Origin: Geosiphon pyriformis
Taxonomy: Eukaryota > Glomeromycota > Glomeromycetes > Archaeosporales > Geosiphonaceae
Direction of reading: 5' to 3'
NCBI GenBank assembly: GCA_016748015.1
Contig: JAAOMT010000690.1
Location: 295,039-359,038, forward strand
DNA: 64,000 bases
A program made the translations under genes and the position numbers. A model generated the notes under the pieces. The model was not told where the DNA came from, searched no databases, and saw nothing but the letters and a program-made list of their open reading frames with translations. Shown one piece after another: positions 21,753 to 52,923 of the stretch. Numbering within the stretch: the stretch's first letter is position 1; each line of letters begins with the position of its first letter.

Positions 21753-22136
21753 AATCTCACTACTTTGCTATTTGATGATTTAACAGAATGACTGTAATTT
21801 TTTTGAATGGCCTGACTTTTGTGCGATACTGGATTTTATTTTGGAAGTTTAGCGTTGGCAATTAATTTTTCCTTGGAAAATCCATAATTCAGGAAATTTT
21901 TCTGAATGATTGTCTCAAATTAGAATCTTCTCGAAATTTAAATTCAAATATTATGCTAAGGTTTCATCAAATTAAAATTTTATTTACAGTTAGAAAAAAT
22001 CCAAGATAGTTTGGATGGGGTTCGCATTAGGCTGGGCATAAATTTTCAAACTTTTGTTCCATATATCCTTGGAAAAAAAATTTTAATTATAATAAAATTT
22101 TAGGAAACTAATTTCTAAAAGATATGTAAATTTTAA
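21753..22136. other. Shared 3' region of two convergent genes
   Basis: AT-rich, between the stop of the reductase gene (+) and the stop of the methyltransferase gene (-). No gene is seen. Confidence 0.7.
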
Positions 22137-23533
22137 CTAATACCTGTGAATGGGTATGCATGTATTATACTGGTCCACTTCTGTAGTAAATAAGGCTTTG
22201 ATCATTTGTTCATAAGCGTCACAACTGATTTTTAGTAAAGGGGCCTGAAGACTTCGTTGTGATATACTCGCCTGTAGCATATCTTGAGCCATCTAAGGAG
22301 ATGTTACGATCTTTTAAAATTGCCAAAATTTTTTTAAAATAATGATAATCATATATGTAAACGAAACAAACCAGTTCCCCAAGTTTCCCGTGACTTTTTC
22401 CCATCTGAGCGTATAATACTTCATGATGTAGATCAATTAGCTGTTTAGTGTCCCTTAATGCTTCTGCTAATCGAAATCCTGGATTTAAATCTATACCTCT
22501 TCTGGTAAGAAATTGGGAGCCTTGAATTCGAAAACATGATCAGAAGAATGCGATTAACAATGATGAAAAGAAGATTATTTAAATTTGGATTATACATGTG
22601 TTGGCCATATATCGCAAGAGTGGTCCTGGGCTCTTCCATTCCAAGTCCATCTCGACAAATTCCAATATTCCACCAGATTTAGTTATTCTGAGTAATTCCG
22701 GAATGATTTTTTCAGAGAATTGAAACCGGGTAAACGCTGATGCCATATATCGTTGATGTACAAAATCAAAATGACCATTAGGAAATTGTAAACCATCGAA
22801 TAAGTCCATTTGTAAAAATGATGCGTTTAATGGGATCGAATCCTTTGGAATTACTGGTACTATGTCTATTCCGGCAAACTCTGAGAAAGGATAAGTAGAA
22901 GCCATATCTATTGTCCAGGAACCACCCCCGCAGCTAATATCAAAAAAAGCTTTTCTTCATCATTTGCATATTGTATTAATTAATATTCAAATTCTCTTGC
23001 GATAATTTGAAGATGCCATTTACCATGAATCAAGCACTTTTGCGTTTCCTGCTATTAGTCTCCCCTCTATTGGACCGTGAAAATTACCTTGCCAAAGAGC
23101 TTTTGATATGAAATGACTGATTGATCCGTGATCTAATTCTTCTAAATTCATAGGTAGCTGGAAAAAAATAAATAAATTTTTGGACAAATCAAAGAAAGCT
23201 TATTGGAAGTGATACATCTAAGATGCTACCAACAAATTTGAGGACCAATGGTTCCATATAATGAAACTGTCGTCCATCCAAATAACGATACTCGGAAGAA
23301 CAAGCTGTCGAAGAATCTTCTCTATCATCTTCAAAAACTGACTTTGCCTTTGTGGTAATTGATGAACCATTAATTGACATTTTTAAAAACTCTTCATCTA
23401 ATTTCTTTCGTCTTAATTTTGATGTGCGACGAAAAAGTGATGGTCTTCGTTTAGTAGGTTGTGGCTGTGGTTCAAACTGACTATTTTGTTTACTGATATT
23501 GTTTTTATTTCGTTTGCTTGAAATTTGGCCCAT
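22137..23533 (-). CDS. SAM methyltransferase paralogue 1 (LaeA/UMTA-like), motif I altered
   Basis: Five exons: 23533-23234, 23157-23024, 22933-22596, 22520-22372 and 22292-22137, giving 1077 nt and 358 residues. It starts MGQISSKR, which fits N-myristoylation (Gly2, Ser6, Lys7). A basic, Ser-rich linker follows to about residue 85, then the class I methyltransferase fold. Motif I at 141-149 reads VLDSCCGGG where the family has VLDxGCGxG, so the first Gly is Cys145. The beta-2 acidic signature GID is kept, as is FDFVHQRYMAS and the later PELLRITKSGG strand-loop. The C-terminal helical region ends in HRY. It is likely a small-molecule or protein methyltransferase in a membrane-attached pool, and the changed Gly may weaken SAM binding. 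Its first donor is GTTGGT, a weak site chosen because alignment with the paralogues requires it. Confidence 0.88.
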
Positions 23534-24870
23534 TATTGAAAATTTTGAAATTGGTGGAAATTGAGAGAGTTTCCTCGAAACTTTTTACTAAAGGGGGTGA
23601 TGTTTGAAAATATTTGAGCTTAAACCAACTTTTCATTTGGATATTTTTTTGATTTCTTGATTGAACACGGAGAAAGGCTGATTTAATGTACATGTATTAT
23701 AATTCTCAGTCGGAGATTGATCCCAAATAGATGATCAATCCTAATTTTATCCGTCAAAAAAAAACGCCGATAACTTTTGGTAGGACGATGATTCATTAAC
23801 GTAATTAAGAATACTTTCTACTAACGTAACATTTTCAAAAATTTGCCTCATGATAAGCCATTTGTTTGTTTTTACGATTTACATTACAGCCGGTTGTCCC
23901 CCACAACCATTTTATTTATTGGATTTGATTCAAAAATTGCCCAGGCAAGTAAGACTTTTTCCGAAAGGTTCTCGAAAATTCTTCCAGAAGGATAAAATGG
24001 AATTAGCAACAATTATATTACCGATTTTTCTTCTGCATGAAAAAGAGTTCTAGGTCGAACATTTAATTATTTTGGAAGAATCCATTAAGAAACGAGAAAT
24101 ATTTTTGTTTATTATATGAGACTAAATTTTGAAGAAGATTTAATACAGGTCAAATTTAACTTTTCGACAATCGGCGAGCGGGCCTTTATCGTGGTCACAA
24201 ACTTGTAGCATAAAATTTTGTTTTCTACTTTTTCTGCTCCCCTAAACTCACAAGTATAATTGGGCGTATCCAAAGATAAAAGTCCATGAATAATCGCGAC
24301 TTTTAGTTTAAATAAGTCGAAGAAAAAAAGGGTTGATATAAAACTTTTCCCATGTTAAAAAGTTCCCCAATTTTCATGAAGCGGGGGATTAGCAAAAAAT
24401 TTTAAGAATGCTCCGATAATATAAATACAGGGATGATCAATGAATTTCCCTCAGCATGTGTGATGCATGATGATCTAACCTACTATTCAAATTGATTGAC
24501 GAGATATTTACTAATGAGTAAAAATAGGGGCCAAAATAGTCAAATAATCGAATTAAAACGTATTCGAAATATTAGATACTTGCTCAATTTCCCCCATCTT
24601 TTGAAAAAAATCTTGGAACTATGACCTATTAAAAACATCTCGATGTTTCATAATAAATTAAGCCAAAAATGAATTTTTTTGTATTATATTTCCCATTATC
24701 AAGATGGTTACCTCATTTTGATCTCAAAGCTCCTTATTAGTTTAACCATTTTACAAAAGTGTGATTCTATCCTTCTATCACAAATTTTGAAAATTGAAAG
24801 AGTTTTATATTATGAATTTTTTCAGATAGATATGATGATGATTGATGTCCATAAGTTGAAAAAAATATAA
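23534..24870. other. Intergenic region
   Basis: Upstream region of methyltransferase paralogue 1. A 67-codon ATG frame at 23850-24053 on the + strand begins with a hydrophobic stretch but has no further support. The open + frame at 24679-24870 lacks an ATG. Confidence 0.5.
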
Positions 24871-25238
24871 TCAATCGTCTGTGAATATGGCCCTTTGAAT
24901 ATATGAAATGAACGCTGGATTTTTGAATGCAGGATCATTTTCCGGGGCCTGTGAATTTATTAAGAAGCCTCTGTTACACTTAAATAAAGAAACCAACCAA
25001 CAACAGTCACCAATAAAAATATGCTCACGTATTTTGCTTTGGGACCTTTGAAATCTGAATCGTTTTGCATCCAATAATTAGCCGAATTTCCTTTGGATTT
25101 GTGATATCGGCTCCCTCGTACCTTTTAATTAATTAAAAATCTCATAATATATTGGACGAATATTAAGGATGTCTTACTTTGAAATTTTTAACTTACATCT
25201 ATATCAACTGGATATGCAGCAATGCCACCGAAATTCAT
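24871..25238 (-). CDS. Small three-exon gene, 70-residue product, unknown
   Basis: Exons 25238-25197, 25121-25029 and 24948-24871 are joined by GTAAGT..TAAAAG (75 nt) and GTGAGC..TTCACAG (80 nt) introns. Both donors are strong, and the sum is 213 nt in a single frame. The product begins MNFGGIAAYPVDID, continues with a polar Lys/Asn/Tyr-rich middle (KSKGNSANYW) and ends KNPAFISYIQRAIFTDD. There is no signal peptide or membrane segment. Intron lengths and splice sites match the well-supported genes nearby, which is the main reason to believe it. Read-through of the second intron would give a hydrophobic segment then a stop, so an alternative form is conceivable. No family is recognised. Confidence 0.5.
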
Positions 25239-25793
25239 AAAAAAAATTGATATTGTAATAAATAAAAATTGGTTTATATCCATTATTATGAACAATTAAT
25301 GAAAGTTTGTTTGAAAAACTTATTGAGGAAAAATAGCGCTTTATAAGGCTTATAGAATTTTTCACGCTGATAATCTTTTCCGGATTAGTTGGCAGAGCCG
25401 ACTTGTAAATACGTTTCAGCCACCCACCTATCAAGCAGGAATAATTCCAATAAATTTAGGTTGATCTACCTTCTTATTGAGTCACGTTTTAGGTGTGAGC
25501 GATTTTTACAAAGTTAGAACTCTTTTCGCCATACAATCTCTAATTTAAATCATGTAAATTTTTTTATATTTTTTTATTAGCCACCCAAAGAAAAGCATCT
25601 TGAATGTTTTTAAAAAAAGCTCTGTGAGTTGACAAGTTTTTTATTAAAACTAAAAAATCACATTACGCGAAGCGAAGTTTTACAATTCATTAATGTATGA
25701 AGGCGCACTAACTTGTTAATAAACTACTCACCAAGCATCCCTTTTCCACTCTTATCTCTTTGAGGATGAAAGAATATATGAAGATAATTCAAT

Positions 25794-26072
25794 TTAGAAA
25801 AATGAATCAGCTACCTCTTCATCCTTCCAATCATCATCTAATTCTTCATTTTCAACCTTTGATTCTCATAAACTCAATTTTTTATCTAAACTGTGTCTAC
25901 TTTTGTCTACAAAATCTTAATCACTTACTATTTGTAGTCCATTTTTACTATCAGTATCTTGATCTATGTTGTTTATCAGATCTTTATTAACATTTAAATA
26001 ATACATTTGTTTAATTTGTTGAAATTCACAATTCTGATGAGATTGGTTTATTACATCTTTTATTTGGGCCAT
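25794..26072 (-). CDS. Small two-exon gene, acidic 68-residue product, unknown
   Basis: Exon 26072-25929 (ATG, 48 codons, MAQIKDVINQSHQNCEF...) joins exon 25856-25794 across a 72-nt intron with a consensus GTAAGT donor and TCAAAG acceptor in phase 0. The second exon is strongly acidic (VENEELDDDWKDEEVADSFF). The first is Gln/Asn-rich with likely helical character. No domain is recognised. A further 56-codon ATG frame lies just upstream on the same strand (26290-26120), so this may be the 3' part of a longer gene or remains of an element. Confidence 0.42.
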
Positions 26073-28938
26073 TGTTAATACTTTAGTACATTAAAAAAGA
26101 AATTAGAATAAATTTAAAATTATATTTGTTCATATGATAATTTTTTTAAAATTGATTTATTTTTTAAAATTAATAAATTTCTCAAAACAAAATGTAAATA
26201 ATTTATCAAAGACAATAATATTTCTACAGATGTGGCATTTAAATAAATATTCATGCTCAGAAATTCTCCAATTTCAATATCTGAATACATCTTGGTTGAA
26301 TTGATTAAAGGATATATTATTAAATGAAAATTTTTTGGTTTAATAATTTTCAAATTTTCACAAAATACTTATTAATGTGGCACAAATTCAAACAGCATAA
26401 TAATATAATAATTATTTACTTAAATCAATCTAAATTTAAATTTTGTTAAAACAAGAATTAATATAAAGTGTTCATAAAAAAATAATAATTGCTTAGCTTT
26501 ATTATTGTCATTCTTTTTCAATAATTTAATTAAATGTCAAACTACACATTGAAGAGTCCAGACCAAAAGTAATAAATTAATTACATTATAAAAATGTGTT
26601 TTATGTGCTTTATTTTGCTATAAATGTTTAAAAAGCCATAAATATAGCCAAAAAAGTTATTTAATAACCAGTATATTTTAATACAAGTGTTCTATATAAA
26701 AAACTAAAAGAACTATAATATAATAATAACTACAATAAATAATAAATAAATTTCAAATTCTCAAATTTAAATACAGATAATTAAATAATTTTTTATTATT
26801 TGCTATTGAATATACTATATATGGCTAATTCTTTACAAATTATTATTATTGTTATTATTTTATTTGTTACTGTTTTTAAAATAGCATTGATTTTGATCAT
26901 TTTTGTTTGTACTTTTTTATTACTAATATTTATTGCTTGCTAAATTAAAACTTTATCAGAATTTGTAACAAACAATTAATAGACCATTAAATAATTTTGC
27001 CTTTTATTAATTTTTTAAAACAAAACTTAAGAAATTGAATTATATGCTAAATTTTAAATAGATATAATTTTTTTGAATGCGAAATTTTAATGGCAATTAA
27101 TTTTTTTATATTATTTAAATTTTAAAATTATTAATTTATATAACTAATTTTCTCTTATTTTATATTTTTAGTTAAAAAATTCACATTTATAAAATAAATT
27201 TTATAGCATTTTTTAGTGTTTTTAAATTACTTTTTAAGAGCATAAATTTCTCAATTTAACTTAATATAAATTAAACATATTGTATAATTATTATATTGTT
27301 TTTGCATATTGATCAGATATTTCAATACAAAAATTTAATTGATAATGACTTTTTTGAATAAAAGGCTGCCAAATAATAAAGACTTTGATTAAGTTAGTTA
27401 TATTAATAATAAAAATTATTTCATATAATTGAAATACTATTAGACCAAAATATTTAAGTTCAACTATTTGCAATTCAATAAAATGAAATTGAAATGGAAT
27501 ATGTTTTTTAATGAACTGAACTAATTTGAATTAACAACTCTGTTATCAGGTATTTTTACAAAAAAAGTTTTTTTTCAATTTTACCGTTGAAAAAAATGCT
27601 TTGTTGAATAAAACAAAATGTCATAAATAAATTTGTGACTTCAAAAAAATTCTTATTAGCCATATAGGAAAAAATATTTTGGAGTATAAATAGAAAGTAT
27701 CAAAGTATTACAACTTGGTACTAATAATATATTTTCGAATTCTAATTGCTTCGAATTTCACTTGTAAAACGTTTTTAGTATTCATGTTCTTTACAGAAAA
27801 GGATATTCGATAAAACAATTTGCTGTACGAGAAAATGTAAGCTTATTTTTGATTGTATAAATATCCGAAAATAAAGAAGTTGCTTAATGCTTTAATGATA
27901 AACCAAAGTCAAGCGGTCCATAAATTATTTGGGTTTATATGTTGTTCGATAAATTCAGTATGGAAAATATTTACTGCTGGTCAAGCCAAAAAAAATAATT
28001 CTGTTGAAATATAAAATGTGTGTTCAAATAAATCGTTTATTCACAAGAACAAAACAAAAAGAGCCATTTCTTTAAAAAACTGACTAAATAATATCAAAAC
28101 TGGACTATTAAAAATTGGAGACAAGTTATTTAGTCTAATAAAAGTAAATATTTTATATTTAGAGTAATATTGTAGGTGTACATTTAATGGACTAACATGT
28201 CATCCCAAAAATCAAATTTGGGATGGCAAAATAATGGTTTGGGATTGATTGACAATTAATTACATTTCAACCTTTGTAAAATTGATGGAAATAAACGAAG
28301 AATATTATTGAAAATTGAAAAAATAAATAACATAATAAGAGTATATAAGATGAAATTAAACACATGTACCATAAAAATTTTCATCTTTACTAAAACTATT
28401 TAAAAGAAATGTAACATTCAATCAAAATAAAATTTGAATATCTTTTTTGTGTTCGATTTCTTTTGTAAGTCACTTTAATTAACACCTTACTTCTTAAAAA
28501 ACATTCTTTAAAGTTCTTTTGAAAAAATACAGTTATTGCATTGAAAAGTTTAAAAAACCATACAAATCTAAAACCAATCATTTCTTCTGATGATTACTGT
28601 TAACGATTGGATTTGATTCGATCATGCAACGTTGATTTGTAACCATTACTGTTTGATTCTTACACTGTAAAAATTCAGTTTTTCTTTTTTCTCAGGAACA
28701 AATATATGTTTGTTTAACAAAATTATAGATACTACCTTTATATTGGAATTTTAGCATACATATTTCACAAGTCAAAACAAATTCTAGAAAACGACGAAGA
28801 TTTTAATATGATAATTCCCAAGCATGCAAGTCATCTTTCTAATGTTAAACTGATCATTCAACCGCCCTGACTTGGGACCAATAAAAAATTTTTTACTTAT
28901 CAATTGGTTCACTACATAAAACTTAATTATTGATCAAA
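26073..28938. other. AT-rich block with a dispersed repeat
   Basis: Includes the 56-codon minus-strand frame 26290-26120 (MYSDIEIGEFLSMNI..., no domain), then extremely AT-rich DNA to about 27600, and the dispersed-repeat copy at 27684. No further gene is supported. Confidence 0.5.
27684..27800. repeat. Dispersed repeat, copy A
   Basis: It aligns by eye at roughly 75-80% to 44261-44378. Shared blocks include TTACAACTTGGTA, CTTCGAATTTCACT and TGTTCTTTACAGAAAA in the same order and spacing. A second shared block (GTGTTCGATTTCTT followed by a TGTRAGYCACT-like stretch) lies at 28449-28472, and again at about 44493-44519. It is probably a decayed mobile element. No coding capacity is seen. Confidence 0.6.
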
Positions 28939-28989
28939 ATGGGAAACTCAAACTCTAAAGCTATTAATTATAAAAATTTGGTGCAGTAA
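28939..28989 (+). pseudogene. Possible relic of a fourth methyltransferase N-terminus
   Basis: An ATG frame of 16 codons reads MGNSNSKAINYKNLVQ then stops. The MGxxxSK start matches the N-termini of all three methyltransferase paralogues nearby (MGQISSK, MGFHHSK, MGNCLSQ), and no methyltransferase domain follows. It may be a leftover 5' end after deletion, or a chance match. The short length limits confidence. Confidence 0.3.
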
Positions 28990-30915
28990 ACATTTAAGGT
29001 ACAACGCCAGATCTTCGTTTAAAATGCATAAACCCACTCAATCGCACATAAAATTTGCAAATTAGAGGTCAGAAATATTTCTATTGGTTGCTTTCAAATT
29101 CAAGTTTATTTGATAATGTTAATTGTCATAGAAAAAAATTCATATGAATATGGTTTCTCTAATATTTGTAAGTTTCGATTCTCTGGTAGATTATTGACCT
29201 AAGTTGCCAAATCAACTTTAGCAGAATTCGAATTTTCTCAAGAGATAATAATATATGATCAAGAGGCAGTCCATGCGTTTTTTTTGTAACTTTTTGTGAA
29301 TCAGTGTCGCCATCCGCATGAAATCTACTTTTTTCACGTAGGGGGACAAAATAGAAGACTAATTGCTTGAACAATCAAACTTTTTACCATTATCAATTCT
29401 AATCTGCTATAAAAACTACCTTTAAAAATTTTCATCGTTTCCCGAGTAAAACTTTTTCATTACATAATGACACAAATTTCTATTTAAGAGTTTGGCGTTT
29501 ATTTGCTAACTGTTCCTCGGCAATTTGTACATCGGATATTTTAAACATGTTATTCTTACAAAATCAATAGTCTAAATTAAATTAGGATGAAGTAATTTTG
29601 ACTAATTTATCCTCCTGAATATTGGGTGCTTATGTGAGTCAGATACTCAACCACCTGGGGTGATTTACAATATTTCTAAAAGTTTAAGGTCGTCGATTGA
29701 CGTTCTTGAATGAAGTTTATGATCGAAAGTTTAATTTTCTAATCTTTGACATATTAGTTTTGGGCGATTCTTATGTTTGAAAAAATATAACTCAAAAATT
29801 GAGTTTCCAATGATTAAGATTCGTAGCCTCGAAAAGGTTTCATTAATTAAATTCAAATTGACCGTTGATATATTAAATTTTACTTTTAAACTATTAAAAA
29901 ATATTTTCTAATTTAAATATATATATATCTTTTAACTTAACAAGTTCAAGAAATAGTCCCTTTTTAAATTACTCAGTTCTTTACATAACAAAAGGGTCAT
30001 TTATTAGCTGCTTCAATGAGCAGGCCTGAGAATCGTTTTTTGAGCTATAAATCATAAATTTCAAATGAATAATTATTTAAGAAGCGTTTTGAGTGCAATC
30101 ACTCAAAGAAAGCATCCAAAACGTTCAGAACTATATTGATAAAAACTATTTTTAGAGAATTAAATCACGATCTAGTTAATTGAAAAGCTTTAGAGTTTAA
30201 GGGATGTTGAACATACAATCCTTTAATTTTTAAAAAGTGTTGCTTATTAATGGTCTTTGCTCTTAGAAAATTGATGATCTAAGACAAAAAATCAATGCAT
30301 CATCAACTGCCCCGTGCGTCATTTAAATTTGTGTATTATTGGAATTTAAGGTTTCTCTTTATCAATGCAAAATTTTCACTGCAAGCTGTTTCATTCAACT
30401 TCTTTATCCGGAAATTCACTCAATTTGAAAGCTTTTAGAGGAATGTTTATGTATTCCATTTAAGACTGGTAATTGTCTTAAATTTTCAAATTAGAGAGTA
30501 GTTATTAAATGTAAGATATTAGAAAATTCAAAGTTGAAAAAACGCAAACATGCTTGACGTTTTTCAGATTCCCTATAATTTCTTGACCAGGCACTCTTAA
30601 AATCTAATACCAAATACAAGGATTCAAAAGAACTTCTATTTATGAACAAAACGTTCACAGTATTGTTGAAGGAGCTTTTCATTGGCTGAAACCTTATACT
30701 CCATATTAAAACTTAATTCTCGTTATCTCAGCTCCGTGATGTGTCACTCACCATTACACGGTCGATTTCGATCCCACCGTTTCTCATGTAAAATTTGTAA
30801 GCACGTGGATATTATTAATGCATGAAATTGAAGATTGAATTTCTCAAAAGCATAAATATGAGCCACCGGGGAAGCTTGTTGATTCCTCAATCTCAATCAA
30901 AAACTCTTTCTTAAA
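28990..30915. other. Intergenic region upstream of methyltransferase paralogue 2
   Basis: It contains minus-strand open frames 29374-29159 (no ATG) and 30682-30491 (63 codons from ATG), both with mixed composition but no domain. The last 150 nt is less AT-rich and probably holds the promoter and 5' leader of the + strand methyltransferase. No clear TATA element was singled out. Confidence 0.45.
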
Positions 30916-32249
30916 ATGGGATTTCATCATAGCAAACAAATGTCATATGCCAAAGTTAATGATAAGAACCATCGCAAATCCCCTTTCAAACATAAAAAAA
31001 AGCAATGTCATAAATTCCACTCGCAGAAACCCTTGAAAGAATCTTTTCGACACAATGATTCCAAAATTTCTGAAGAGACTGCAAACTGCTCATCACGCAG
31101 TAACAGCTCAAAGGTTTCGTATCATATGCTGGATGGTCGTCGGTATCTCAAAGAAGAGGAATGTGTTTATTTCTTCCCGGTAGATGTTAAAGAATCAGAT
31201 CGAGCTATTTTATGCCACTTCTTGCTGAAAGCTCTTTGGCAAGGAAATTTCAAAGCTCCAATCGAAGAAAAGTTGAGGAATGGTGAAATGAAAGTGCTTG
31301 ACATAGGGTATGTAATTAGATGGATTTTCTTTCAAGATTATTTTAAATTTTCTTTCCGCCAGACAATAATTTTCAAGAAATACTCATTCATGTAATAAAT
31401 GCTTCCTCTTATTTTTAAACTTTGTACAGCTGCGGACCCGGCCCCTGGGCATTAGAAATGGCATCAACATATCCGAATTCACATTTTACAGGCATCGACA
31501 TAGCACCAGATTGTCCGAACGAAATAAAACCAAAAAATACAAAATTTTCCCAAATAAACATTCTTGAAGGTTTACCTTATGTAAACAACCATTTTGATTA
31601 TGTTCATCAACGTATGATGTCTACATCATTTACATCCAAACAATACGATGAAATTGTGTTACCTGAATTAATTCGCGTGACTAAATCTGGGGGCGTAATA
31701 GAATTAATGGAATTCGACCAAACGTGTATTAAGATTGGACCAATCTTTGCTCAAATGGATGAGTTTTGTAAATTTAGAACTTAAAATTATTTATGTAATT
31801 TTCACGCGCTTCAGACACAAACCGACTAACTTATTTCCGATCAAATATTTTAGATAAAGACTTTCTAAAAAAAGTTGGTATAGATGTTTATCAAGGATCG
31901 AGGCTAAGAAAATTACTGGAGAATTGTGATGAACTTCGGGATATAAAAATGGGATCGATAGAAATACCATTCGGTTCTTCACATGGAAAAATGGCAAAAT
32001 TGGTGACTATCTTTGATACATTTTTTGGTTTAAATTTGAGCTTTAGGAATATAAAGACCAAACTAATTCATATCCGATTCTCAATAGATGGCCGAAAATT
32101 TTTATGAAGGATTCTTGGCAGCAAGAGGTCAAATCTCTGCTGTAATGAACATATCCCATGGGGAATACGATCAATTGATCGAACCTGTTTTTAAAACAGA
32201 GCTGAATCAAAACCAAACTGCCATCTTTGCTCACAGGTATTCATCTTAG
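30916..32249 (+). CDS. SAM methyltransferase paralogue 2 (LaeA/UMTA-like), intact motifs
   Basis: Four exons: 30916-31307, 31430-31767, 31815-32002 and 32088-32249, giving 1080 nt and 359 residues. The N-terminus MGFHHSKQ fits N-myristoylation, followed by a Lys/His/Ser-rich linker. The family block LDGRRY precedes a conserved KALWQGNF. Motif I is complete (VLDIGCGPGPW, 127-137). GIDI supplies the acidic residue after beta-2, and FDYVHQRMMS and PELIRVTKSGG are intact. This copy has the best-preserved SAM site of the three. It lacks the first intron of the other copies but shares the three later junctions, and its second exon (338 nt) equals the third exon of paralogue 1. An AATAAA lies about 207 nt after the stop. 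The substrate is unknown. It converges on paralogue 3. Confidence 0.92.
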
Positions 32250-33105
32250 CTAATTTAAGTTCACACTTATTTTTTCGTTCATCATTTTTTTCTGAAACTC
32301 TTGCATCCTTTTTACCGACAGATTTTATGCTACCAAAATTTAATGAGAGAAATTTCCCTCTTACCAAAATCTTGGTCACTTTTTATGATATTCTAAGATT
32401 TTGCATCTGTTATTGATATTTGTATATATATTTGTAGATGTTTGTACTAGTATTAAATAAAATAATCATTCTTACAATTGTACGCAAGCAAACGCGGAAT
32501 AGCTGAACTTTGTAGTCCAATAATTTATTATAACGACACGCAGTAATTTAAATTCCCTTTTCAATTGATTGCTAGAGAAACCAATATTGAGAGTTTTTTG
32601 AGTTTAGATCAAGTACTCGCAGAGTCATGGTTTTTATGTGGGAAGGCATTCATGCTTATTCTTTTTGATAAGTGCTTAATTGTGTCATGTGAAATTGAAT
32701 TCATGCCTTTTCTTGCACCAATTTAGAATGTGCTATTAACCGATAGCATTGACCAATCGCATTATCAGGCCAATATCTATTTTTAAGACTAAACTCGACT
32801 GCAAGGAAAAATTTTGAACATGATACGCGTTTTTCTACTTCCAAACACTTGAAAAATTCTTAGTCTATTATTTATCCGATTATTCTAGTGTGATATTTAT
32901 ATAAAAATTCCTCCGAAAACAATGTCAAACAAAGACACAAGCTCATATTATTATTTAAGTACGAATTACATATTAGAACAGGTTGCTTGTGGTTACTGCC
33001 ATTCAAATTTTGGTACAATAAATTCTGTAAATAAAATGAAGATTTTCAAAGTTCAGAAAGTTGGCTTCGTGATAGACTACGATATCTGAAGGCCATACAG
33101 TAAAC
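32250..33105. other. Shared 3' region of convergent methyltransferase genes
   Basis: About 860 nt between the stops of paralogues 2 (+) and 3 (-). It has an AATAAA at 32456-32461 for the + gene. No further gene is recognised. Confidence 0.6.
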
Positions 33106-34428
33106 TTACTTGTGAACTCGAATACAAGTATTATATAAATCCACTTCTGATTTGAATATCGTATCACACATTCGAATGAATTCGGAATCCGAGATTTTCA
33201 TAGAACATGATAAAATTGGTTGCTGCGCCAAGCATAAATGATACATGCTATTTTTGGACTAAAAATTTATTCAAGAAAAAGTTTGAGCCCGTAATAACGT
33301 GACTTTTCCATAGAAAAATTCTTACTCTTACCAGGTCACTGATACTCCCATTCTGTTTTCCAAGAGGAACAATTTTCTCTTCATAATGAATATTTTTAAC
33401 TTGTTTTGTTCTTTCTAGGGCTTGTTTTAATGTGGATCCTATATTACAATTTATCCCGTTTGATTCAAGAAACCGTAAGTCTGAATAAAAGTCATATAAA
33501 TTTAATTATAAGTGTTATGATAGTAAAAAAGCCCAATTTATAGGACAAACTCACAATAGTTGGCCAGGAATCTGAGAACAGGTCCTTGATTAATAAATTC
33601 AAAATTCATTTCTGTAAATTCTAACAAGCCCTCAGGCTTTGTAACACGCAGAAGCTCAGGAATGATGACTGAACAAAATTGAAAATCCGTCAAAGTAATG
33701 GCCATTAGCGTTTGGTAGACAAAGGAAAACGTCTCATCTGAAAAAGGCAACCCGGCCAGGATATTGGTATGCGTAAAGGTCACATTGTAAGGTGAAGTAC
33801 TATTAAATTTCTCAATAGATGGATCAATATTAATCTCTGTAACATTTAGTGATGGATAGGATTTAGCCATCTCGATTGCCCATGATCGTGTACCACAACT
33901 AAAAAATTGAGTGAGAAAAATCAGAAAGCCTGCGAAGATAAAAATTAATAGCTTTTTATCTATGAAAATTTGTGCTACTTGATGGTCAAAACTTTTTCAT
34001 TTCCTCCCTTTAAAATTGACTCAACAGGTGCCTGAAAATTTCCTCCCCAAACAGCTTTCATCCACACATGCTGAATATCGAGATTTGCTGGATCGGCAAA
34101 ATTATTCGAAATCTGTCAAGTAATTGATTCATCAAAATATTCAAAATTAAGCAGAAACAGCTAAAACTTAATTCACAATACTAACTTTTCCATCAATCAA
34201 CACACATCCTCCGGACTGAAGATTTTCCATACTTGAAATACTTTTTAACTTACTCCAAATTCCCTCAACCTCGACATTTGAGCTTTTAGAGGGTGTCTCA
34301 AATAAAAAGTCTTCCTTGTCTTCTGGTTCACTCTGGGTAGAAACAGTATTGGTAACGCAAATTAAACATTGTTGACATAAATCTTGCTGGTCTTGGATCT
34401 TGTGACTTTGACTTAAACAGTTTCCCAT
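33106..34428 (-). CDS. Methyltransferase paralogue 3, probable pseudo-enzyme
   Basis: Five exons: 34428-34186, 34112-33979, 33898-33555, 33480-33332 and 33258-33106, giving 1023 nt and 340 residues in one frame. Exon lengths 134 and 149 are identical to paralogue 1. The N-terminus MGNCLSQS suggests myristoylation plus a palmitoylatable Cys4. The fold is recognisable (KAVWGGNF, PELLRVTKPEG, the C-terminal SEVDLYNTC). However, the SAM site is lost: motif I reads VLTINCGTR (122-130) instead of VLDIGCGPG, the post-beta-2 GID is EIN, and FDxVHQR is FSFVYQT. The frame is nevertheless free of stops over five exons, so it appears maintained as a protein. A non-catalytic partner or regulator of an active paralogue is a possible role; slow decay is the alternative. 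Confidence 0.85.
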
Positions 34429-38358: not shown

Positions 38359-39105
38359 TTAAACTTTAAATATAGTGCTGAGAAGACACTTGATTTCGTT
38401 CTCGTTATTTTTTTCCATGTTTGCTGTGCAAAATTTGATAGCTGAAAATATATCAATATTGGTGCCAATTCCATTTTTAGAATAAAGTGCCAATTGTCTA
38501 CTGGCAAGTAAATTTCCTCCTTGAGCACTTTTTTCTAAACAAATTACAACGTTCCGTTTATTAGGTGTTCTCTCAAGATAGCATCTGGCGAGTTGATTGT
38601 ACGCTTCAGGATTACCACGATTAGCCGCATATTTATACCAATAAAAAGCGGACTGAAAATTTTCATTTGTTCCAATTTCCCACTCATAGCACCTTCCAAC
38701 CATAACTGCCCCATTCATATCTCCCATGTTAGCTGCCTTTTTATAATATTTGTAAGCTATTAGTTTATGATTGAGAACCTCCATGATCCTTTCGTAGAAA
38801 AATCCAGCCAACGTCATGCGAGCGGCATTTGTTTGATTAAAGTGTAATTCAAGCAAGATACCTCTGGCATCATACGCCTCCCATTTGATCGTAAGACGAA
38901 TTACATGAAGAATTTTATCCAGTGATGTTCCATTATTAAACGCTTTATTGAAGATTTCCAGGAGCGTATTGATAGCTGCCTCGATTTCTGGCCTTTTTGT
39001 TGGCTTTACATCATTCTCGTATGTCTCGTTAAACCAATATTTATTAGGAAATGCCGAGCCCCAAGGAATAACGGTCTCGTTAAAATTATGAGCCATGATA
39101 TTCAA
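38359..39105 (-). CDS. Sel1-repeat protein A
   Basis: Single exon, 248 residues. The N-terminal 110 residues are helical and carry an unassigned region (EAAINTLLEIFNKAF). From about 130 to 225 there are three Sel1-like (SLR) units with the usual pattern: AYKYYKKAANMGDMNGA, then SAFYWYKYAANRGNPEAYN, and CLEKSAQGGNLLASRQLALY, each with Ala/Gly at the helix-packing sites. SLR solenoids act as protein-protein scaffolds. No kinase domain, signal peptide or membrane segment is present, unlike many fungal kinase-Sel1 fusions. A second in-frame Met at position 4 could be the start. It is the most divergent of the three Sel1 proteins here. Confidence 0.85.
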   Translation of the reverse strand: MNIMAHNFNETVIPWGSAFPNKYWFNETYENDVKPTKRPEIEAAINTLLEIFNKAFNNGTSLDKILHVIRLTIKWEAYDARGILLELHFNQTNAARMTLAGFFYERIMEVLNHKLIAYKYYKKAANMGDMNGAVMVGRCYEWEIGTNENFQSAFYWYKYAANRGNPEAYNQLARCYLERTPNKRNVVICLEKSAQGGNLLASRQLALYSKNGIGTNIDIFSAIKFCTANMEKNNENEIKCLLSTIFKV

Positions 39106-41213
39106 AAATGTTTTATTGATGCTTGAAAATCAGGGCAGCCCGTTTTTTTTTTTATAGTAAGTTTGACATAACATGAAATTGCGTAACAAATTGATAATAA
39201 CTTCAGACCCACGATCACCTGACTACCAGCAAAGTGTCTGCCTAGAAATAATTGTTTCATTCTAAAATAGTTCAGCATTTATAATCTGCTATGGTAAAAA
39301 AGGCTAGTTAGATTTGTTATGGATTATCTATCGGGCCACATCTTAAACTATGGAATGCTGTTTATAGGCCTTATTAGTTTAATATAATAAGTTTAAGCTA
39401 TTTTCAAAAATCAGGACACAGCAACTTGTGTATTTATTCCATATATTGTACATTTTAGCTTCAATTCATACTTTATTTCATTTTATTTTGTTTAATTAGC
39501 GCTAGTTACTTTATTCTTGTAATTATAAAATCAGATAATTTCATAAATTTTTGAGCTTTTCAGTAACAATTCCATAAAAATGCTCAATTCATTATTGAAA
39601 ATAATATCTGTTTGATTTTACAAGTCTGGATATTTTATATCAATTTTTAAATGTAAACTGTACCTTTGAAAAATATTTTTGTAGTGATTACTATTAAAAA
39701 AAAAAGGTAATTAATTCGAAATAAAGTAGTCGAGTATTTTTAATTTTGGTCATTATTTTAAGCTTATCAAATTTAAAAGAAAAAGTACACTTAATTTATA
39801 AATTTATAATTTAAAAATTAAACAAATTTATAACTTATAAATTGTCTTAAACTTTAGAATATTTCTAAGGACTTGGTTAGTTTTAAAATTTTGCTAGTTA
39901 ATAATCGATAATTTTTTGCAATTTTTTAATCAATAATCACTTAGTATGTTTAGAAAATTTAACTTTATATGTTGTACTTGAAAAAACGTGTTAAAAAATC
40001 TGCGTCTTTACCTTTTCTCAAACCCAATTCAATCAAAAATTTATCAGAATTAATATAGTTTTAACTTTGAAGAAAATATTTAATGTGAAACCAATTTTTT
40101 ACTCATAAGTGGATTTTTAAATTACTATGAAAACTCAATTATTTTTTCTTATATTAATCGAATCATCAAGGTTAAGGTTCATCTTTTTTTTGTTGTGAAT
40201 GAATATTTTGAATACATGGAGCACCGAAAACATGTTTACTTTGATTCCGGTTAACAAGATTAGAATTTGAAAATATAAAAGATTTATTTTTTAAACTGGT
40301 ATAGTATTCATTTGAGATTTTCAAATATCAAATTTTCTAAAGCACTCTTTTTAGTTGAACATAGAAAGCCAAATTTAAAATTCTCCTAAAACTCAAATTC
40401 TGGATCGATCGTTTAATTCGGGAAAAAGTTAAGTTTTGATATGAAAATTTAGAGTTTGGGATTTCCAATATTTCTTTTTTTATTCCACATAAACAAACTA
40501 TAAAGTTTAAAAGAAAGCTAGATATCTATAGTGAGACAAAATTAAAGTTTTTTTTGAATTGATATTGTCACCTGAAAAGATTATTCTAATTTTCTCTATT
40601 AGAGGAAAATTTAAACCTCAAAGTCTTTCTGTTTAACATTGGATGAAATTCATAGGTATAACCGGCTTTATGACAAAAGGTTTTTCAAGGATCCATGACC
40701 ACTTATGAACCATCAAAATTGGTCAAGAAATTTAAGGTTACTTGAATTTTAAAAAAAGGCTTCATAAAACTAAAATTCTTATGGTTCAACTTGGAAGAGA
40801 TTTTACAATCCGAGTTTTTTGAACTGGTTAAAGGAATTTGAGTTTCATTATATTGTTGAAACTTTAAATCTCAATACATTCTGTAAAATATATCTTCAAG
40901 TATGAAAAAAAGGGAGAAAGTTGCTTAAGTTTGAGAATCTATCATAAAAATGTTTACAGCTTAAAAATTTTTTTTGGTTAAACTTTCTAAATCTTAATGG
41001 TACTTATATAGTTAGAAATTTGTAAAATCATCAACCTTTTAGGTCTTAATAAAAAGAAAATAAATTTAGTAAGGTAGTAAATCTTAGATAAAATATTATT
41101 TTAGAAAATTATACATGCTACATATATTCAAATTCCTGCTACAAAAATTGATAGTTTACAAAACTTTATAGCTGCTGCATTAAAGAAGATGTTTGACAAT
41201 ATTACTGCTTTTC
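39106..41213. other. AT-rich intergenic region
   Basis: No open frame of interest and no repeat noted over about 2.1 kb. It includes the upstream region of the Sel1 gene. Confidence 0.65.
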
Positions 41214-41912
41214 TTAATTTTGACCTTGCCTTTCTTCTGGGCTTTGATTTTTGGGTTTTGGAAAGTCAGGGCCAGTTAAAGTTTGACTTAAAAATGAACT
41301 GTTCTGCTTAATGGCATTTATATTAGGCTTAACACTTTCAAAAAAAGCGTTTGAATTTGTTCTGCTTAAATTTGAGATCAAGTGTGATATTGAAGGTAGC
41401 CAAGGGTGGTTTGGTAGTGTTGTAAATTGATTTCCCACTGTTTGTCGTGGAACTGGCAAAGTCCAGTTTTCTATCCAAGGAAATGTTGGCTGTGAGACTG
41501 TATTTGGATACCTTTGGCTCAATTTTGATATATTCGAAAATGAATTAAAGTTCCAAGATTCCACAATTTGTGGTTTAAAGGTTTGTTCTTTGGATGGTTT
41601 GACAAGAGTAAGTTTCGATCCGAGTATTGGGTCAGGATCTTCTGAAAAATCGCTTTTATTTTCGAGCAGGGGAAAATTTGGGCACTTTTGTAACATCCTA
41701 TCTATCCGTGTTTTCGTTGAGTAAATAACCTCTTTGGTCTTGGACTGAGGCCCTCTTTTTTTACTAATCGGTTTAAAGGTACAGCACAATTCGTTTTTTT
41801 TACAATTTTTGCATGGACCCGGAAAACCACTACATTTAATCTTTTTAACTTGGCAATAAGTACAAGCGTAACGAACCTTGAATTGCTTTTCTGGGACATA
41901 TTCGTCCGACAT
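41214..41912 (-). CDS. Zn2Cys6 (Gal4-type) DNA-binding protein, short
   Basis: Single exon, 232 residues. Residues 17-44 hold a canonical zinc binuclear cluster: Cys17-x2-Cys20-x6-Cys27-x6-Cys34-x2-Cys37-x6-Cys44, with an additional Cys43 and basic residues between the second and third Cys (QVKKIK). A Lys/Arg-rich linker follows. The remainder is Pro/Ser/Asn/Phe-rich and looks disordered (PTFPWIENWTLPVP). This class is essentially fungal. The usual middle homology region is absent, so the product is much shorter than typical Gal4-type activators; it could be a truncated regulator, a competitor for DNA sites, or incomplete if further exons lie downstream. Nuclear location is expected. Confidence 0.9.
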   Translation of the reverse strand: MSDEYVPEKQFKVRYACTYCQVKKIKCSGFPGPCKNCKKNELCCTFKPISKKRGPQSKTKEVIYSTKTRIDRMLQKCPNFPLLENKSDFSEDPDPILGSKLTLVKPSKEQTFKPQIVESWNFNSFSNISKLSQRYPNTVSQPTFPWIENWTLPVPRQTVGNQFTTLPNHPWLPSISHLISNLSRTNSNAFFESVKPNINAIKQNSSFLSQTLTGPDFPKPKNQSPEERQGQN

Positions 41913-44900
41913 TAAAGTGGGATCCCAGAAAAGCTTAAAAAGAAAGAAAATTCAAAAGTAATTATACCAAGGGTACTGTCAGAGGCTTAAAGTGTTTAGA
42001 AAAAAAAAATCTTTCCTAAAAGTAAATTTCGCGAGGAATTTTCTTCGAGTTTTAGGGAATTTGGTAGAGATAAATTTAGGTTCTTGTCCCATTAAATTTA
42101 TAGTTTTTAGAGGTTGTCCCTCAAAAAAATCTGATATTTTCGATTTCTAAAACCAATTTTTTCCCATTGTTCTGTAATAAGGCACAAGATTTTTTATCAG
42201 TGATCCTCACTAGACAAAAGAATACACATTTAAAAGGTCAGCTCACAGAAAATTAACGCGAAAAATAAAGCACATCACGAGTTTATCACCTTGTGTTTCA
42301 AAAGCCATGTGCAATATTTTCCATTAAAGTTTTATGCTTATAAAATTATTTAAGAAATTTATTTAATAAAACACAGCCTTTTCATTACAAAAATATTTCC
42401 TTTTTTATGAATTATATAGAAAGAATAAGGTTCACATGAATTGAAAACAAGATCAAGTCTTAGCTCAGTCTTAAATAATTACCTTTTTCATACTCATAAT
42501 ACAAGAAAATTATGTAAAAATAGCACATAAACCCGTTTCAAGGAATTAGAACACACAAATATCACTTATTGAATAAGTTAATTAATCATTGAAATACGTT
42601 TAGAGCAATTTGATGTGAACCAATAACATTGAGCTATTTTTTAAATTTTGAATTAGATCATCCTAATTTTTTTGATAAATATAAACCATATTTTTCTTTG
42701 TTTTTCATGAAATAAAGAATTATTTTTCTTAACTTTAAAAATCTCTTGATTATAAACTCTAAAAAATTTAATTAAAAATTTAAGTAATTGGGATTCAAAA
42801 CAAAGAAATATGTATTAAGATTGTTTCACTAACCAAAAATATATTAAACCAAACATAATTTTTTCTTCTAATAAAGTTATCGAATTTATTTAAAATTTTT
42901 TGCTGTAACGTTAAGCTCTTTTGTTTTAAAATTGTTGTACCCCAGATTATATGTGATTCTAAACCTAGCCTATGGTCTTTGATTTGCAACGCATATAAGA
43001 AACCAGGATTTTGGTAATAGCTACCACAAAAGAGCCTTTGTGTTTACGAGACTCAATTTAAGCTTTTCGATTAAACCTCCAAAATTTGTAATGTTTAATT
43101 TACCAAAACCAATAAAAATCAAGTCAATATATGTTTTTCACTCTGGATCCTTTAATTAAATAGATTGTAAGTAAAATGGATTTTAAAAAATTAAATTGGG
43201 AACGAATTTTGATAGAATTTAAAATTTAAAATTTTTTTTAGCATCTATGAATTCAAAGTTCAATCGCATGTTTCCCTATGAGATGAGATAAGCCCGAGCC
43301 ATGGTCTAGGCCTCATGAATACATATACGTTTAAGCTCTGGGATGATTGGAAATAATTTCTACTCATAAATATTTTCAGTAGCCTGATGGGTATTTTTTA
43401 GAAACTTTGTTTCATATTTTTCTTGAAAGATTTCTTTATAAGGAATTACAAGAATTTTATTTTATCTTTTTAAATTAAGAGCATCAATTTCGATATTCCA
43501 AAGTAAAATTTTCTAAGCAACATTCAAAATGGTATTTGAAATGTTTGTTAATGTTTTATTATTCAATTTGAGTTATCTCATTGTATATTTTGAGAATTAA
43601 ATACTACCAATCTGTTCAAAAAGATAAATAGCAGGCTGAACCTTATTAAATTTTCAAGGCCAAACATATTGAAATATTCTGTCAAATTAAAATTAAAAAT
43701 TCTTGGAAATAAAACAATTCTTTCTATGGATATCTTGTATTTTTCGCGGCATATATTTTTTGTAACTTATTCTAGTGGAATTATACCAAATCTTCTACTA
43801 TTTTCCAATGCCATTTTTAAGATTCAAAAAACTGCTCAAATTTTTATAAAATAAAAAATTTTCTCAAAAGCTTTATATTTAATTACGTCTTGACTTAAGA
43901 AAAGGAAAGTTTATCATTACTTTATAAACTTCAAATTTTGTCTTTAATTTATAACGAGTGTAAAGGAGGAAATAGGCTTAAGATAAATATGTTATAGATT
44001 TCCCCCCAAGTCTTAGAAAATTTTAAAAAGTCGAATTTATGATGAAAGAAACTCATGCGTTTCGACCTGAAAATCAGCCAGCGTCATAAAAACAGTTGCA
44101 ATCGCACACAAAAAAAATTCTCAAAATTTCAAATTATTTTTTATTTAAAATTATGAGACTTTTATTATTAATTACGGAAATACATACGACATTTATTTCA
44201 AACAAAAGACTGCGGAACTAATTAAGGTAAGCTTAGATAACAATTTTTTTCGCTACATCATATATACAGAAAGTATCGTTATTTTACAACTTGGTAGTAA
44301 TAATATTTTTATTTAAATTCAAAATACTTCGAATTTCACTCGAAAAAGATTTTCATATTCTTGTTCTTTACAGAAAAAAATAGTGAGGACAACATTTATA
44401 ATTATTAGAAATTAAATGAATATCTAAAATTCCTTTTGTTATTTTTCCAATCTCTAATTCTTATATAAAAAATGATGCGTACCAAAATTTTTGGTGTTCG
44501 ATTTCTTCTGTGAGCCACTGTAAATCCTCTGCTATACTTAAAAATGTTAATAGCGAAAGGTATTCATTAAATAAATACCAAAGGATGGAAAAGTCAATCA
44601 CGAGATTGATCATGTTAACAGTCCCTGATCAACTCATAATTTGTGAGTCTAACAAATTAAGCAATATTGGGAGGCATATCTGGCAACAGGATATAAAAGG
44701 CTTCAACAAATATGGATCTTAAAGGCACTTAATTTTTTTTATTCTGTTTGATAATACATAATGCGTATTCTATAAAATAATCTCCTAATAAAAGCCGGTA
44801 TACGTTGTTTTCATCCCAGGCCCGCAAAGATGCTTTGGAGAAATTTTAACCGTAAAACTTGCATCAGCTTTGATATGTTGAATTTCCAATTTTGGGCGAT

Positions 44901-47845: not shown

Positions 47846-49210
47846 TTATTCAGTTAAAAATATTGCATCCACTATTTCTCTAGCAAGTATAGAAGCTTTT
47901 TCCGAACGACTACTTTGTTCAGCTATATATGCCCACCTGACAGCGGCATGTATATCCTGTTGCGTGCCCAGACCATCTTTGTAAAGTTTAGCTAGGTCAG
48001 CGCATCGTGAAGAAATGACAAGATCGTCTCTGGCAGATTTATAATAGCAAATAAAAGATTTCGCTGGATTTCGCAAAATACCTTTCCCAAACATATATGC
48101 ATATCCCAATACAGCCATTCCTTTTAGACATCCATGAGCTGCAGATTTGCGGAGCCATAAAACGGCAGTTTGCTTGTTCCAACTTGTGCCATCACCATAC
48201 CAATAACATAGGCCAAAATGATATTGCCCCATGGGATATTCATTCTTTGCTGAGATTTCAAACCATTTAAAAGCTTTTTCCAAATCTTGCACAGTTCCAA
48301 TCGCTTTAGTGTAACACATTCCAAGGGCATTTTCACCTTCGGGACAATATCCAGACTCTACCGATTTCTGATAACAATTAAAAGCATCCTTGTGATTTTT
48401 TGCAAATCCCCATCCATTTTCAATCGATTTTCCTAATTCATACCAGCCATAAGAATCTCCTTTCCTTCTTGAATAACAGTCAAACCCACTAGCACCATAT
48501 TTATTAAAACCTTGGATTACTTGACTAGCTTTTCTGCAGCCGTTTCTCGCGGCTACTTGATAAAAGTGAAATGCTGCATAATTGTCTATTCGAGTCCCAA
48601 TTCCAGAATGATAACACAGTGCAAGGCCAAATTGTCCCAGCGGATCGTCTGAACAAGCGGATAATTCGTAAAGCTTAAAAGCTTTTTCGTCATTTTTAAA
48701 AACGATGATTCCTTCAGAATAGTAAAAAGCCAGTTCGGATTGAGCAACAGAATACTCGTTTTTAGCAGCGGTATCATAAAATCTAATAGCTTTTTTTTCA
48801 TTGTACTCTGCTCCTATTTCCCATAAATGAAAAAATCCCAGAAGAAATGCATACTCAGGTCGATTTATCTCTGACCATAAAGTTTGCAACTTCTCAAATA
48901 CTTGAACTTCGTCTCCATTATGATCATGAATCCAGTCTACCAATCGGCCAGCTATATGATGCCTTTCATATGTTGTACATCGAAGTTTTAAGTAAAATTG
49001 AACGAGGTTGTTGAAAAAACAAAGATTACTTTGTGCATTTTCGGTTAGACTTTGAATTTCGGATGTTTTGGGGATATCCCCGTTTAAGTCTTTTTTTGGA
49101 TCTGTAATATCAGGCTCTATGTGTTTCCTAGTTTTCGGGTTACTTTTTAGTCGATTAATGAGATTCTTGATAAAAATTTTGCTCTTTTTTTGGAGAAATA
49201 CATTAGCCAT
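47846..49210 (-). CDS. Sel1-repeat protein B (long)
   Basis: Single exon, 454 residues. Residues 1-110 are a charged N-terminal region without repeats. About eight Sel1-like repeats fill 115-445, for example KAIRFYDTAAKNEYSVAQSE, KAFKLYELSACSDDPLGQFG, KAFKWFEISAKNEYPMGQYH and AVLWLRKSAAHGCLKGMAVL, each followed by GxxYxxGxGTxxD-type loops (LCYWYGDGTS). It forms an alpha-solenoid for protein contacts. No kinase domain is fused. A 20-residue spacer (GFNKYGASGFDCYSRR) interrupts the array near 230-245. Neighbours are the convergent NADH dehydrogenase and the Tc1 relic. The ATG is the first in frame after the 5' AT-rich leader. Confidence 0.93.
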   Translation of the reverse strand: MANVFLQKKSKIFIKNLINRLKSNPKTRKHIEPDITDPKKDLNGDIPKTSEIQSLTENAQSNLCFFNNLVQFYLKLRCTTYERHHIAGRLVDWIHDHNGDEVQVFEKLQTLWSEINRPEYAFLLGFFHLWEIGAEYNEKKAIRFYDTAAKNEYSVAQSELAFYYSEGIIVFKNDEKAFKLYELSACSDDPLGQFGLALCYHSGIGTRIDNYAAFHFYQVAARNGCRKASQVIQGFNKYGASGFDCYSRRKGDSYGWYELGKSIENGWGFAKNHKDAFNCYQKSVESGYCPEGENALGMCYTKAIGTVQDLEKAFKWFEISAKNEYPMGQYHFGLCYWYGDGTSWNKQTAVLWLRKSAAHGCLKGMAVLGYAYMFGKGILRNPAKSFICYYKSARDDLVISSRCADLAKLYKDGLGTQQDIHAAVRWAYIAEQSSRSEKASILAREIVDAIFLTE

Positions 49211-49800
49211 TTTGAAATATTGAGAGATATTTAGAAGACATTAATTAAATCAGGTGTTAGAACGAATTGGGTTGGGTTCTAAATGCGATGTAATCAAGGG
49301 GCAAAAATCCTTGCAATTTCCTGCAGATGCAATTTCTAAACAAATATCCTGGCGCAAGTGCAACCAATTAATTATCACGTGTTTGATATTCCGAAATATA
49401 TATAATGTTTTTTTCTATGGTCCAATCTGCGTGATTGATATGATTTGAATTTTAGAAAAAATAATGTCAATCGTAAAAATTAATCCACAATTTAATGAAT
49501 TGTTTGAATGCATCCTTGAACAAAATCTCATTCATACTCTACTTTCGGTTTTGGGCCAATTTTTTGGGAAAAACAAAATAGAGAAATAGCTCATATAAAA
49601 TAAGATTTTGAGCAATTATTTCAAATATCATTCATCATTCAGATAGATTTTGAAAATTGCACAATTTTAAATGTTTAGATTCGCTGATTGATACAGTTAT
49701 GGCGGACAACTTTTTTTTTGGATTACATGATTTTTTTAAACACAAACCTAGGAGATTTTTTTATTCAAAATACCTTAATACCAGTGTTATCAATATATAA
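49211..49800. other. Intergenic, upstream of Sel1 protein B
   Basis: AT-rich; probably the promoter of the minus-strand Sel1 gene. The sequence around 49690 may include one end of the Tc1/mariner relic, but no terminal inverted repeat was confirmed. Confidence 0.5.
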
Positions 49801-51347: not shown

Positions 51348-52151
51348 TCAGGAATTAAAAATTTCTTGAATCGAATAGGGGTCAAAGTTAACTCCGTTTC
51401 GAAGAGCGAGCCGACTAACTTTTAACCCTTGATGCTTATCAACCAAAGTTCCACGACCAGATAGATGATATTGTGCCAAAGCTTGAGATCCTAACGGTGA
51501 GCCTACCATTTGACTATTATTCTTTAACCAATGGAAGGCTTCAAGAACATTTTTCTTGACCCCAATTCCATTTTCATAACACCATAAAACCATTTCTATA
51601 GCGTCACTAAATCCAGCCTGAGCCGATTTTTTAATTAACTTGAATCCTTCTTCTTTTGATTCCGGACCAACAGGACATACTAAATACATTTTCCCTAGAC
51701 GAAATTGGGCAATTGCCATATCGGCATCAGCAGCTTGTCGAAACCAATACCTAGCTTCTGCCAAGTCTTCAACAATGCCGATTCCACGTTGAAGAAAGCA
51801 ACCAAGTTCTTGTTGACCCAGAGGATCATTATTTTCAGCGGCACGTTTGTACCATTTGTATGCTTCGTAACTGTGGTCACCCGATATTCCTACTTCACAA
51901 AGATTGAGAAATGCCAAAAGAGTCCAATAGCGTGGATTATCTTGATGGCTACTGACAATTTCGTAGACGTATTTCGGGAGGATTCTGTTTCTTGAGAGCC
52001 ATTGCAAAATGTTAGTTTTGATCTCGTCGTCATATTTCCATTTTGCATTTCCTCCGATGAATATCTCCAAAACTTTTTCAATTATCTTTATATCATCATA
52101 TTCTGATTTATTTGTATTTTCTGAAGTAGATATTTCAATATTTAGTGACAT
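51348..52151 (-). CDS. Sel1-repeat protein C
   Basis: Single exon, 267 residues. Residues 1-55 are a polar, helix-prone lead (IIEKVLEIFIGGNAKW), resembling the lead region of many fungal Sel1 proteins. From about 90 there are four or five Sel1-like repeats: EAYKWYKRAAENNDPLGQQE, EARYWFRQAADADMAIAQFR, GFKLIKKSAQAGFSDAIEMV and EAFHWLKNNSQ..GSPLGSQA, with GIGI/GIGV/GRGT loops between helices. No kinase or catalytic domain. Role by family: scaffold or adaptor. It lies 2.1 kb from Sel1 protein B on the same strand, with the transposon relic between them. Confidence 0.92.
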   Translation of the reverse strand: MSLNIEISTSENTNKSEYDDIKIIEKVLEIFIGGNAKWKYDDEIKTNILQWLSRNRILPKYVYEIVSSHQDNPRYWTLLAFLNLCEVGISGDHSYEAYKWYKRAAENNDPLGQQELGCFLQRGIGIVEDLAEARYWFRQAADADMAIAQFRLGKMYLVCPVGPESKEEGFKLIKKSAQAGFSDAIEMVLWCYENGIGVKKNVLEAFHWLKNNSQMVGSPLGSQALAQYHLSGRGTLVDKHQGLKVSRLALRNGVNFDPYSIQEIFNS

Positions 52152-52923
52152 TTTGTAAAGTTAACAAAAGGTTTCATAAAAAATAGAGCTCAGCCCACAT
52201 TCTTTTGAGCTCATTTGCTGGTTTCACGAGTACACTTGTTAGTCTGAAAAAGGAATAAACTTGATTGATCATCAAAATTTTTAATTCATATCTATATGCA
52301 TCAGTTGAAATATAAAATTTAATATTTTTAAGATAAAGCGATTATTTATTAATTTATCAATGGTGGGAAGAGTGATTTAAGGCTGCGAAAGAGGAAAGCT
52401 CAAATATCTTTATCAATTCATAAATTCGCGTGCAATTATTAAAACTCTTTTTCGTTTATGATTTGGAGAATATGCATACTTTTTTCTCTACACGTCATTC
52501 TTGGTAACGATGTTCACAATAAAAGCTCGTGATCAAACGAAGTGACCCTGTCAATAAATATTGCTTTTCCGCTTTTTGGCAAAAGAAATTTTCTCATTCC
52601 TTTTAAGAAACCTGATGTTAATTTTTCGATGAGAGTGTGAGGAATATCTTATTCTTTGATTCTAAAGATGACCAGTGGCGATATAACTCATTCTCGGTTC
52701 CATCTGGCAGTTGGAAGTAAGTATGAATTTATTTATTTTCCAAATCTCTTGTTTTAATGACACGTTCTTATAACCAACCGACTCAACCTGAAATAATATT
52801 TGAATTCGGTAACTCTAGAAAGTCCTACTAATATCGTAAAACAAATTCAATATGGATAATCTTTCACGATCCAAAAATAGTGTCGCTAAATCCAATCATT
52901 TTTATTACGATCCTTAGTATGCT
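52152..52923. other. Intergenic region
   Basis: It holds the upstream region of Sel1 protein C. A short + strand ATG frame at about 52669 (MTSGDITHSRFHLAVG) runs to a consensus GTAAGT donor, which looks like a first exon, but no second exon could be matched. Confidence 0.4.

Follow-up and report, generated by a model that had tools for sequence, protein, structure and literature searches.

Geosiphon pyriformis encodes a large family of class I SAM-dependent methyltransferases, most of whose members are very probably N-myristoylated and held, with the help of a second signal, at the cytosolic face of a membrane. We infer myristoylation, membrane location, catalysis and substrate class from the sequences. 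The usual architecture of these proteins consists of an M-G-N/x-x-x-S-K/R signal, a basic or cysteine-containing stretch, a disordered linker, a helical W-x-x-NFSAP block, a Rossmann domain and a short C-terminal part. We picture a series of events in which methionine aminopeptidase would remove Met1 and a single N-myristoyltransferase (NMT) would attach a C14 chain to Gly2 as the polypeptide emerges. A second signal, either a patch of Lys and Arg or a palmitoylated Cys at positions 3-6, would then stabilise binding to the cytosolic face of the membrane, and the linker would allow the catalytic domain to reach membrane-near substrates such as lipids, small molecules or membrane proteins.

Three members of the family, genes A, B and C, lie in the window, by which we mean the whole 64,000-nucleotide stretch of DNA that was analysed. 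When the DNA is read with GT-AG introns (47-122 bases), all three can be followed from an MG start through to a stop, and their ATG-GG starts at 23533 (minus strand), 30916 (plus strand) and 34428 (minus strand) are in each case the first ATG past an in-frame stop. Gene A (22046..23533, minus strand) encodes a methyltransferase of 363 aa that starts MGQISSKRNK and is divided into six exons (23533-23234, 23157-23024, 22933-22596, 22520-22372, 22292-22144 and 22067-22046); it reaches 22046, slightly beyond the left edge (22137) of the stretch covered by the initial annotation. Its N-myristoylation-type signal, MGQISSK (23513..23533, minus strand), is followed by a basic stretch. Gene B (30916..32343, plus strand) encodes a methyltransferase of 362 aa in five exons (30916-31307, 31430-31767, 31815-32002, 32088-32236 and 32322-32343), and its signal of the same type, MGFHHSK (30916..30936, plus strand), carries Phe3. 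Gene C (33003..34428, minus strand) encodes 346 aa in six exons (34428-34186, 34112-33979, 33898-33555, 33480-33332, 33258-33110 and 33024-33003) and has the myristoylation-type signal MGNCLSQ (34408..34428, minus strand), in which Cys4 is a possible site of palmitoylation. The exon boundaries match among the three genes, the first intron of A and C being absent from B, and the final two coding exons measure 149 and 22 bases in each.

The initial annotation had described three paralogues with an MGxxxS start, and all three prove to be intact, with 5-6 exons, products of 346-363 aa and 32-39% identity (A/B 39%, A/C 38%, B/C 32%); on the family tree, A has C as its sister (support 99/90). Their assignment as methyltransferases likewise held, all three products exceeding the Pfam cut-offs for class I families (Methyltransf_25 E-values of 3.2e-9 for A, 2.1e-13 for B and 9.9e-8 for C). 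The SAM motif is intact in B (VLDIGCGPGPW), as it is in most paralogues together with the acidic residue after strand 2, altered in A (VLDSCCGGGSW) and damaged in C (VLTINCGTRSW), and C also has EINID in place of GIDI. These two changes suggest that gene C probably encodes a pseudoenzyme. It retains, despite the damaged SAM-binding motif (33555-34112), an open frame and a dual-acylation-type MGNCLS start; we regard its product as a candidate lipid-anchored pseudoenzyme.

The 124.7-Mb assembly, in which the window lies on contig C399, was searched with the first exon of gene B, the consensus of the W-x-x-NFSAP block and the consensus of the catalytic exon. All the loci collected were read individually, and the family comprises at least 69 of them; one further candidate, L062, does not belong to it. 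The catalytic exon was recovered in most of the 69. An MG start was found in 55 loci and not in the other 14. It shares an open frame with the conserved block in 31 loci; in a further 24, including A and C, the start sits in an exon further upstream or was recognised when the locus was read. Seven of these 24 (L031, L037, L039, L042, L051, L052 and L055) are without a clean single intron.

Of the 55 members with MG, 43 carry Ser at position 6, 3 carry Thr and 3 carry Cys; 32 have Lys or Arg at position 7 and 26 have Asn at position 3. Variability, measured as entropy, amounts to 1.33 bits at position 6 and 2.71 bits at position 7 and is 3.3-4.1 bits over positions 8-45. In these 55 of the 69 paralogues Gly2 and Ser6 are thus clearly better conserved than the 40 residues that follow, as the initial annotation had anticipated; its further statement that the N-terminus is otherwise unconserved was nearly right, except that Asn3 and Lys/Arg7 are also favoured across the family. 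The myristoylation rule is M-G-x-x-x-S/T (PMC5492501, PMC4692089), and Ser or Thr occupies position 6 in 46 of the 55. Residues barred from position 3 by a PROSITE-type rule occur there in only 6 of 55 members compared with an expected 44%, the depleted ones being Asp, Glu, Arg, Lys, His, Pro and the aromatics. The PROSITE PS00008 pattern is matched by 44 of the 55 and a looser rule by 49; A and C agree with the rule, and B departs from it at position 3 (Phe).

MG was itself used in finding these starts, and a fair test is therefore restricted to features that played no part in choosing them. Such a test matters because 24 of the starts were assigned via an intron or by hand, and the gene models come from sequence alone, so that the true N-termini could lie elsewhere and the MGxxxS matches could be chance products of picking ATGGG. 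However, in the 31 same-frame loci picked by ATGGG alone, position 6 is Ser in 25, whereas Ser makes up 13% of the linker (p 2.7e-17, a value that is overstated since paralogues are treated as independent, although the effect is still large and the family is widely diverged). Lys or Arg at position 7 (16 of 31) and Asn at position 3 (14 of 31), neither of which was used in picking, are enriched in the same loci. At other ATGs in the family loci MG occurs at 4.2% and MGxxx[S/T] at 0.86%, and these background rates together with the ATGGG-only subset rule out a chance origin of the MGxxxS starts. The MG starts also look real: 37 of the 55 have A at -3 (background 35%), an upstream in-frame stop is close by (median 10 codons away) and another in-frame ATG precedes the start in just 3. 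An artefact of start picking is accordingly hardly credible to us. Recent copying was also considered as the source of the pattern and rejected: near copies do occur among the MG members (L005/L015, L007/L008 and L052/L054), yet Ser6 is still present in 41 of 52 when one of each pair is left out, and the end branches of the family tree are long (median 0.49 changes per column).

Two further accounts accept the starts and dispute what they are for. MG could be retained because the N-terminus has to be processed or stabilised (by Met removal, N-acetylation or evasion of a Gly/N-degron), or because of the start context (G at +4), and not for a lipid. Start context would be satisfied by one G, so that Ala, Val, Asp or Glu would serve equally, and it leaves unexplained Ser6, Lys/Arg7, Asn3, the Cys enrichment at positions 3-6 and the depletion of charged residues, aromatics and Pro at position 3. 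We consider this account quite improbable, even though G at +4 together with A at -3 is a common start context and A at -3 is enriched in the family. All four Gly2 codons (GGA, GGT, GGC and GGG) are used and Ser6 is encoded by both TCN (33) and AGY (10) codons, which argues for selection on the protein rather than on a DNA element. Alternatively, the signal could be real and ancestral while many copies, gene C among them, are decaying or non-catalytic, leaving a family that is largely inert and an anchor of little present function. The damaged SAM motif of gene C, a stop inside the conserved block of L015, which is probably a pseudogene, and the degenerate state of L075 and L076 are in keeping with such decay. 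However, motif I (D/E-x-G-x-G-x-G), the GIDI-type strand and long open frames are kept in most members, and the persistence of Gly2 and Ser6 where linkers are no longer alignable needs continued selection; a largely inert family thus seems unlikely. We favor the model in which selection for lipid anchoring has kept Gly2 and Ser6, a proposal of the initial annotation that is supported, as a prediction, by 55 of the 69 paralogues and by the NMT that the genome encodes.

Conservation of Gly2 among homologues, on which that proposal leaned, is found in these 55 paralogues, whereas the 14 without MG tell in part against it. MG and non-MG states change 8 times on the tree compared with 12.9 expected in shuffles, and the clustered non-MG members look like losses of the MG start. 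In one group, around L016, L018, L021, L043 and L073, most members are without the signal, which has been largely lost there or was never present. L043 starts MDNSNS and L016 MKNLQS, which gives the impression that Gly2 was exchanged and Ser6 retained. Some non-MG loci have another plausible start (L041 MEENVNFD, L073 MSTFSWRN), and L009, L032, L040, L060 and L075 possibly have a missed exon or are dead genes. With 14 of 69 loci lacking MG, the predicted N-terminal anchor signal characterises most of the family but not all of its members. A genome-wide scan for MGNxxSK returned 22 sites compared with 6 in a reversed control; six of the 22 are family members and most of the remaining ones are without a long open frame. 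A single-sequence scan, which cannot establish absence, returned no bacterial relatives.

The residues around the MGxxxS core bear on how these proteins might be retained at a membrane. Cys occupies 30 of 220 places at positions 3-6 compared with 1% in the linker, and Lys and Arg fall from 35% at positions 7-13 to 11% at positions 35-45, with basic residues declining after about position 20. These predicted N-termini resemble those of doubly anchored proteins that combine myristate with palmitate or with a basic patch. On the tree, Cys is gained or lost about nine times, and the sister genes are unlike in this respect, A being basic and C having Cys. Members with Cys have a lower charge (1.6 versus 3.9, p 5e-4, before tree control), and we do not claim a trade-off between Cys and basic second signals, since tree control leaves just 3 independent pairs and is uninformative. 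The genome contains one NMT gene, with NMT and NMT_C exons, on contig C373, and several matches to DHHC palmitoyltransferases. The classical myristoylation rule bars Phe at position 3 (PMC4692089), and the product of gene B is therefore the weakest of the three as a predicted NMT substrate, despite its Ser6, Lys7 and basic linker.

A predicted model of the paralogue L053, made without the C-terminal part, is disordered over its first 48 residues and has a confident core, pLDDT >88, of the seven-stranded Rossmann-like fold. A structure search with this model gave 445 PDB matches at E-values up to 1e-3, the leading ones all methyltransferases. Among solved structures it comes closest to generic class I enzymes, for example phosphoethanolamine methyltransferase and LahSB, and similarity therefore does not reveal the substrate. 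Sequence and fold searches alike led to generic class I methyltransferase families alone. The Geosiphon family has in common with Pfam Methyltransf_25/23/31/11 (PF13649, PF13489) domain matches above the cut-off, motif I and the GIDI-type strand in most members, and the Rossmann core, whereas its acylation signal and linker lie outside these families; the matches point to no subfamily. The putative label LaeA/UMTA-type, which the initial annotation had used, agrees with the Geosiphon family in general fold and fungal origin. LaeA is a nuclear partner of velvet proteins, and a membrane anchor in the Geosiphon family would run contrary to this. If the anchor is real, many possible regulators or modifiers of small molecules would sit at membranes and not in the nucleus, where the LaeA label would suggest.

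Methyltransferase folds and myristoylated proteins are each ordinary, and several known systems display parts of the combination proposed here. The human methyltransferase-like proteins PCMTD1 and PCMTD2 have an MG start and are reported in human myristoylomes. They thus carry a myristoylation signal on a methyltransferase fold, as the Geosiphon family is predicted to do, but they belong to another subfamily (PCMT) and are two genes only, compared with at least 69 Geosiphon loci. Myristoylated proteins of the Src type (basic) and of the Fyn, G-alpha and eNOS type (Cys) likewise have MG-x-x-x-S/T followed by basic residues or Cys (for eNOS and the consensus, see PMC5492501); in the Geosiphon family, however, the catalytic domain is a methyltransferase and acylation is predicted from the protein sequence. 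The calcium-dependent protein kinases of plants (AtCPK5, PMC3668125) are a large family in which many acylated MG N-termini and a variable region precede the catalytic domain, but these are kinases and the likeness is in architecture only. In the open-access literature that we searched, we found no N-myristoylated methyltransferase family of such size described, and within that literature what appears to be new is the combination in a family this large. Usually about 0.5% of proteins are myristoylated (PMC4692089), so that some 50 members, if they are modified as predicted, would form a major part of the fungus's myristoylome.

Such a family would also raise the question of where the myristate comes from. 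Rhizophagus irregularis is reported to be without type I fatty acid synthase, to be unable to build fatty acids beyond C8 and to respond to myristate (PMC8793856; PMC8781679), growing better when fed with it (PMC8793856). A search of the Geosiphon genome for two domains that mark type I fatty acid synthase found neither, which fits a member of the Glomeromycotina, although absence is not proof with the search used. If this organism resembles arbuscular mycorrhizal fungi in being unable to make C14, the chain must come from outside. It is conceivable, though we think it a long shot, that the C14 on about 50 methyltransferases derives from lipid of a plant host or the medium and that the family acts as a readout of lipid supply, its members reaching the membrane only when such acyl-CoA is available. 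On this hypothesis host lipid supply would be tied to the location of enzymes.

Other features of the window lie outside the three genes. Between A and B, a short open frame reading MGNSNSKAINYKNLVQ before a stop (28939..28989, plus strand) has a start context like that of the family and is possibly the relic first exon of a dead fourth copy. It lies in otherwise empty DNA and, since no methyltransferase remnant was found beside it, may be chance. Three frames that by eye resemble Sel1-type repeat proteins (38359-39129, 47846-49240 and 51348-52160, all on the minus strand) are each without an MG start; families with Sel1-type repeats are commonly expanded in such fungi. An open frame at 41214-41951 (minus strand) contains a Zn2Cys6-type cluster (CTYCQVKKIKCSGFPGPCKNCKKNELCC) and likely encodes a fungal transcription factor. 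At 55250-56150 of contig C399, locus L089 contains a short frame, MGCLTSNESRQTSKLKELVK, reminiscent of the acylated N-terminus of G-protein alpha subunits.
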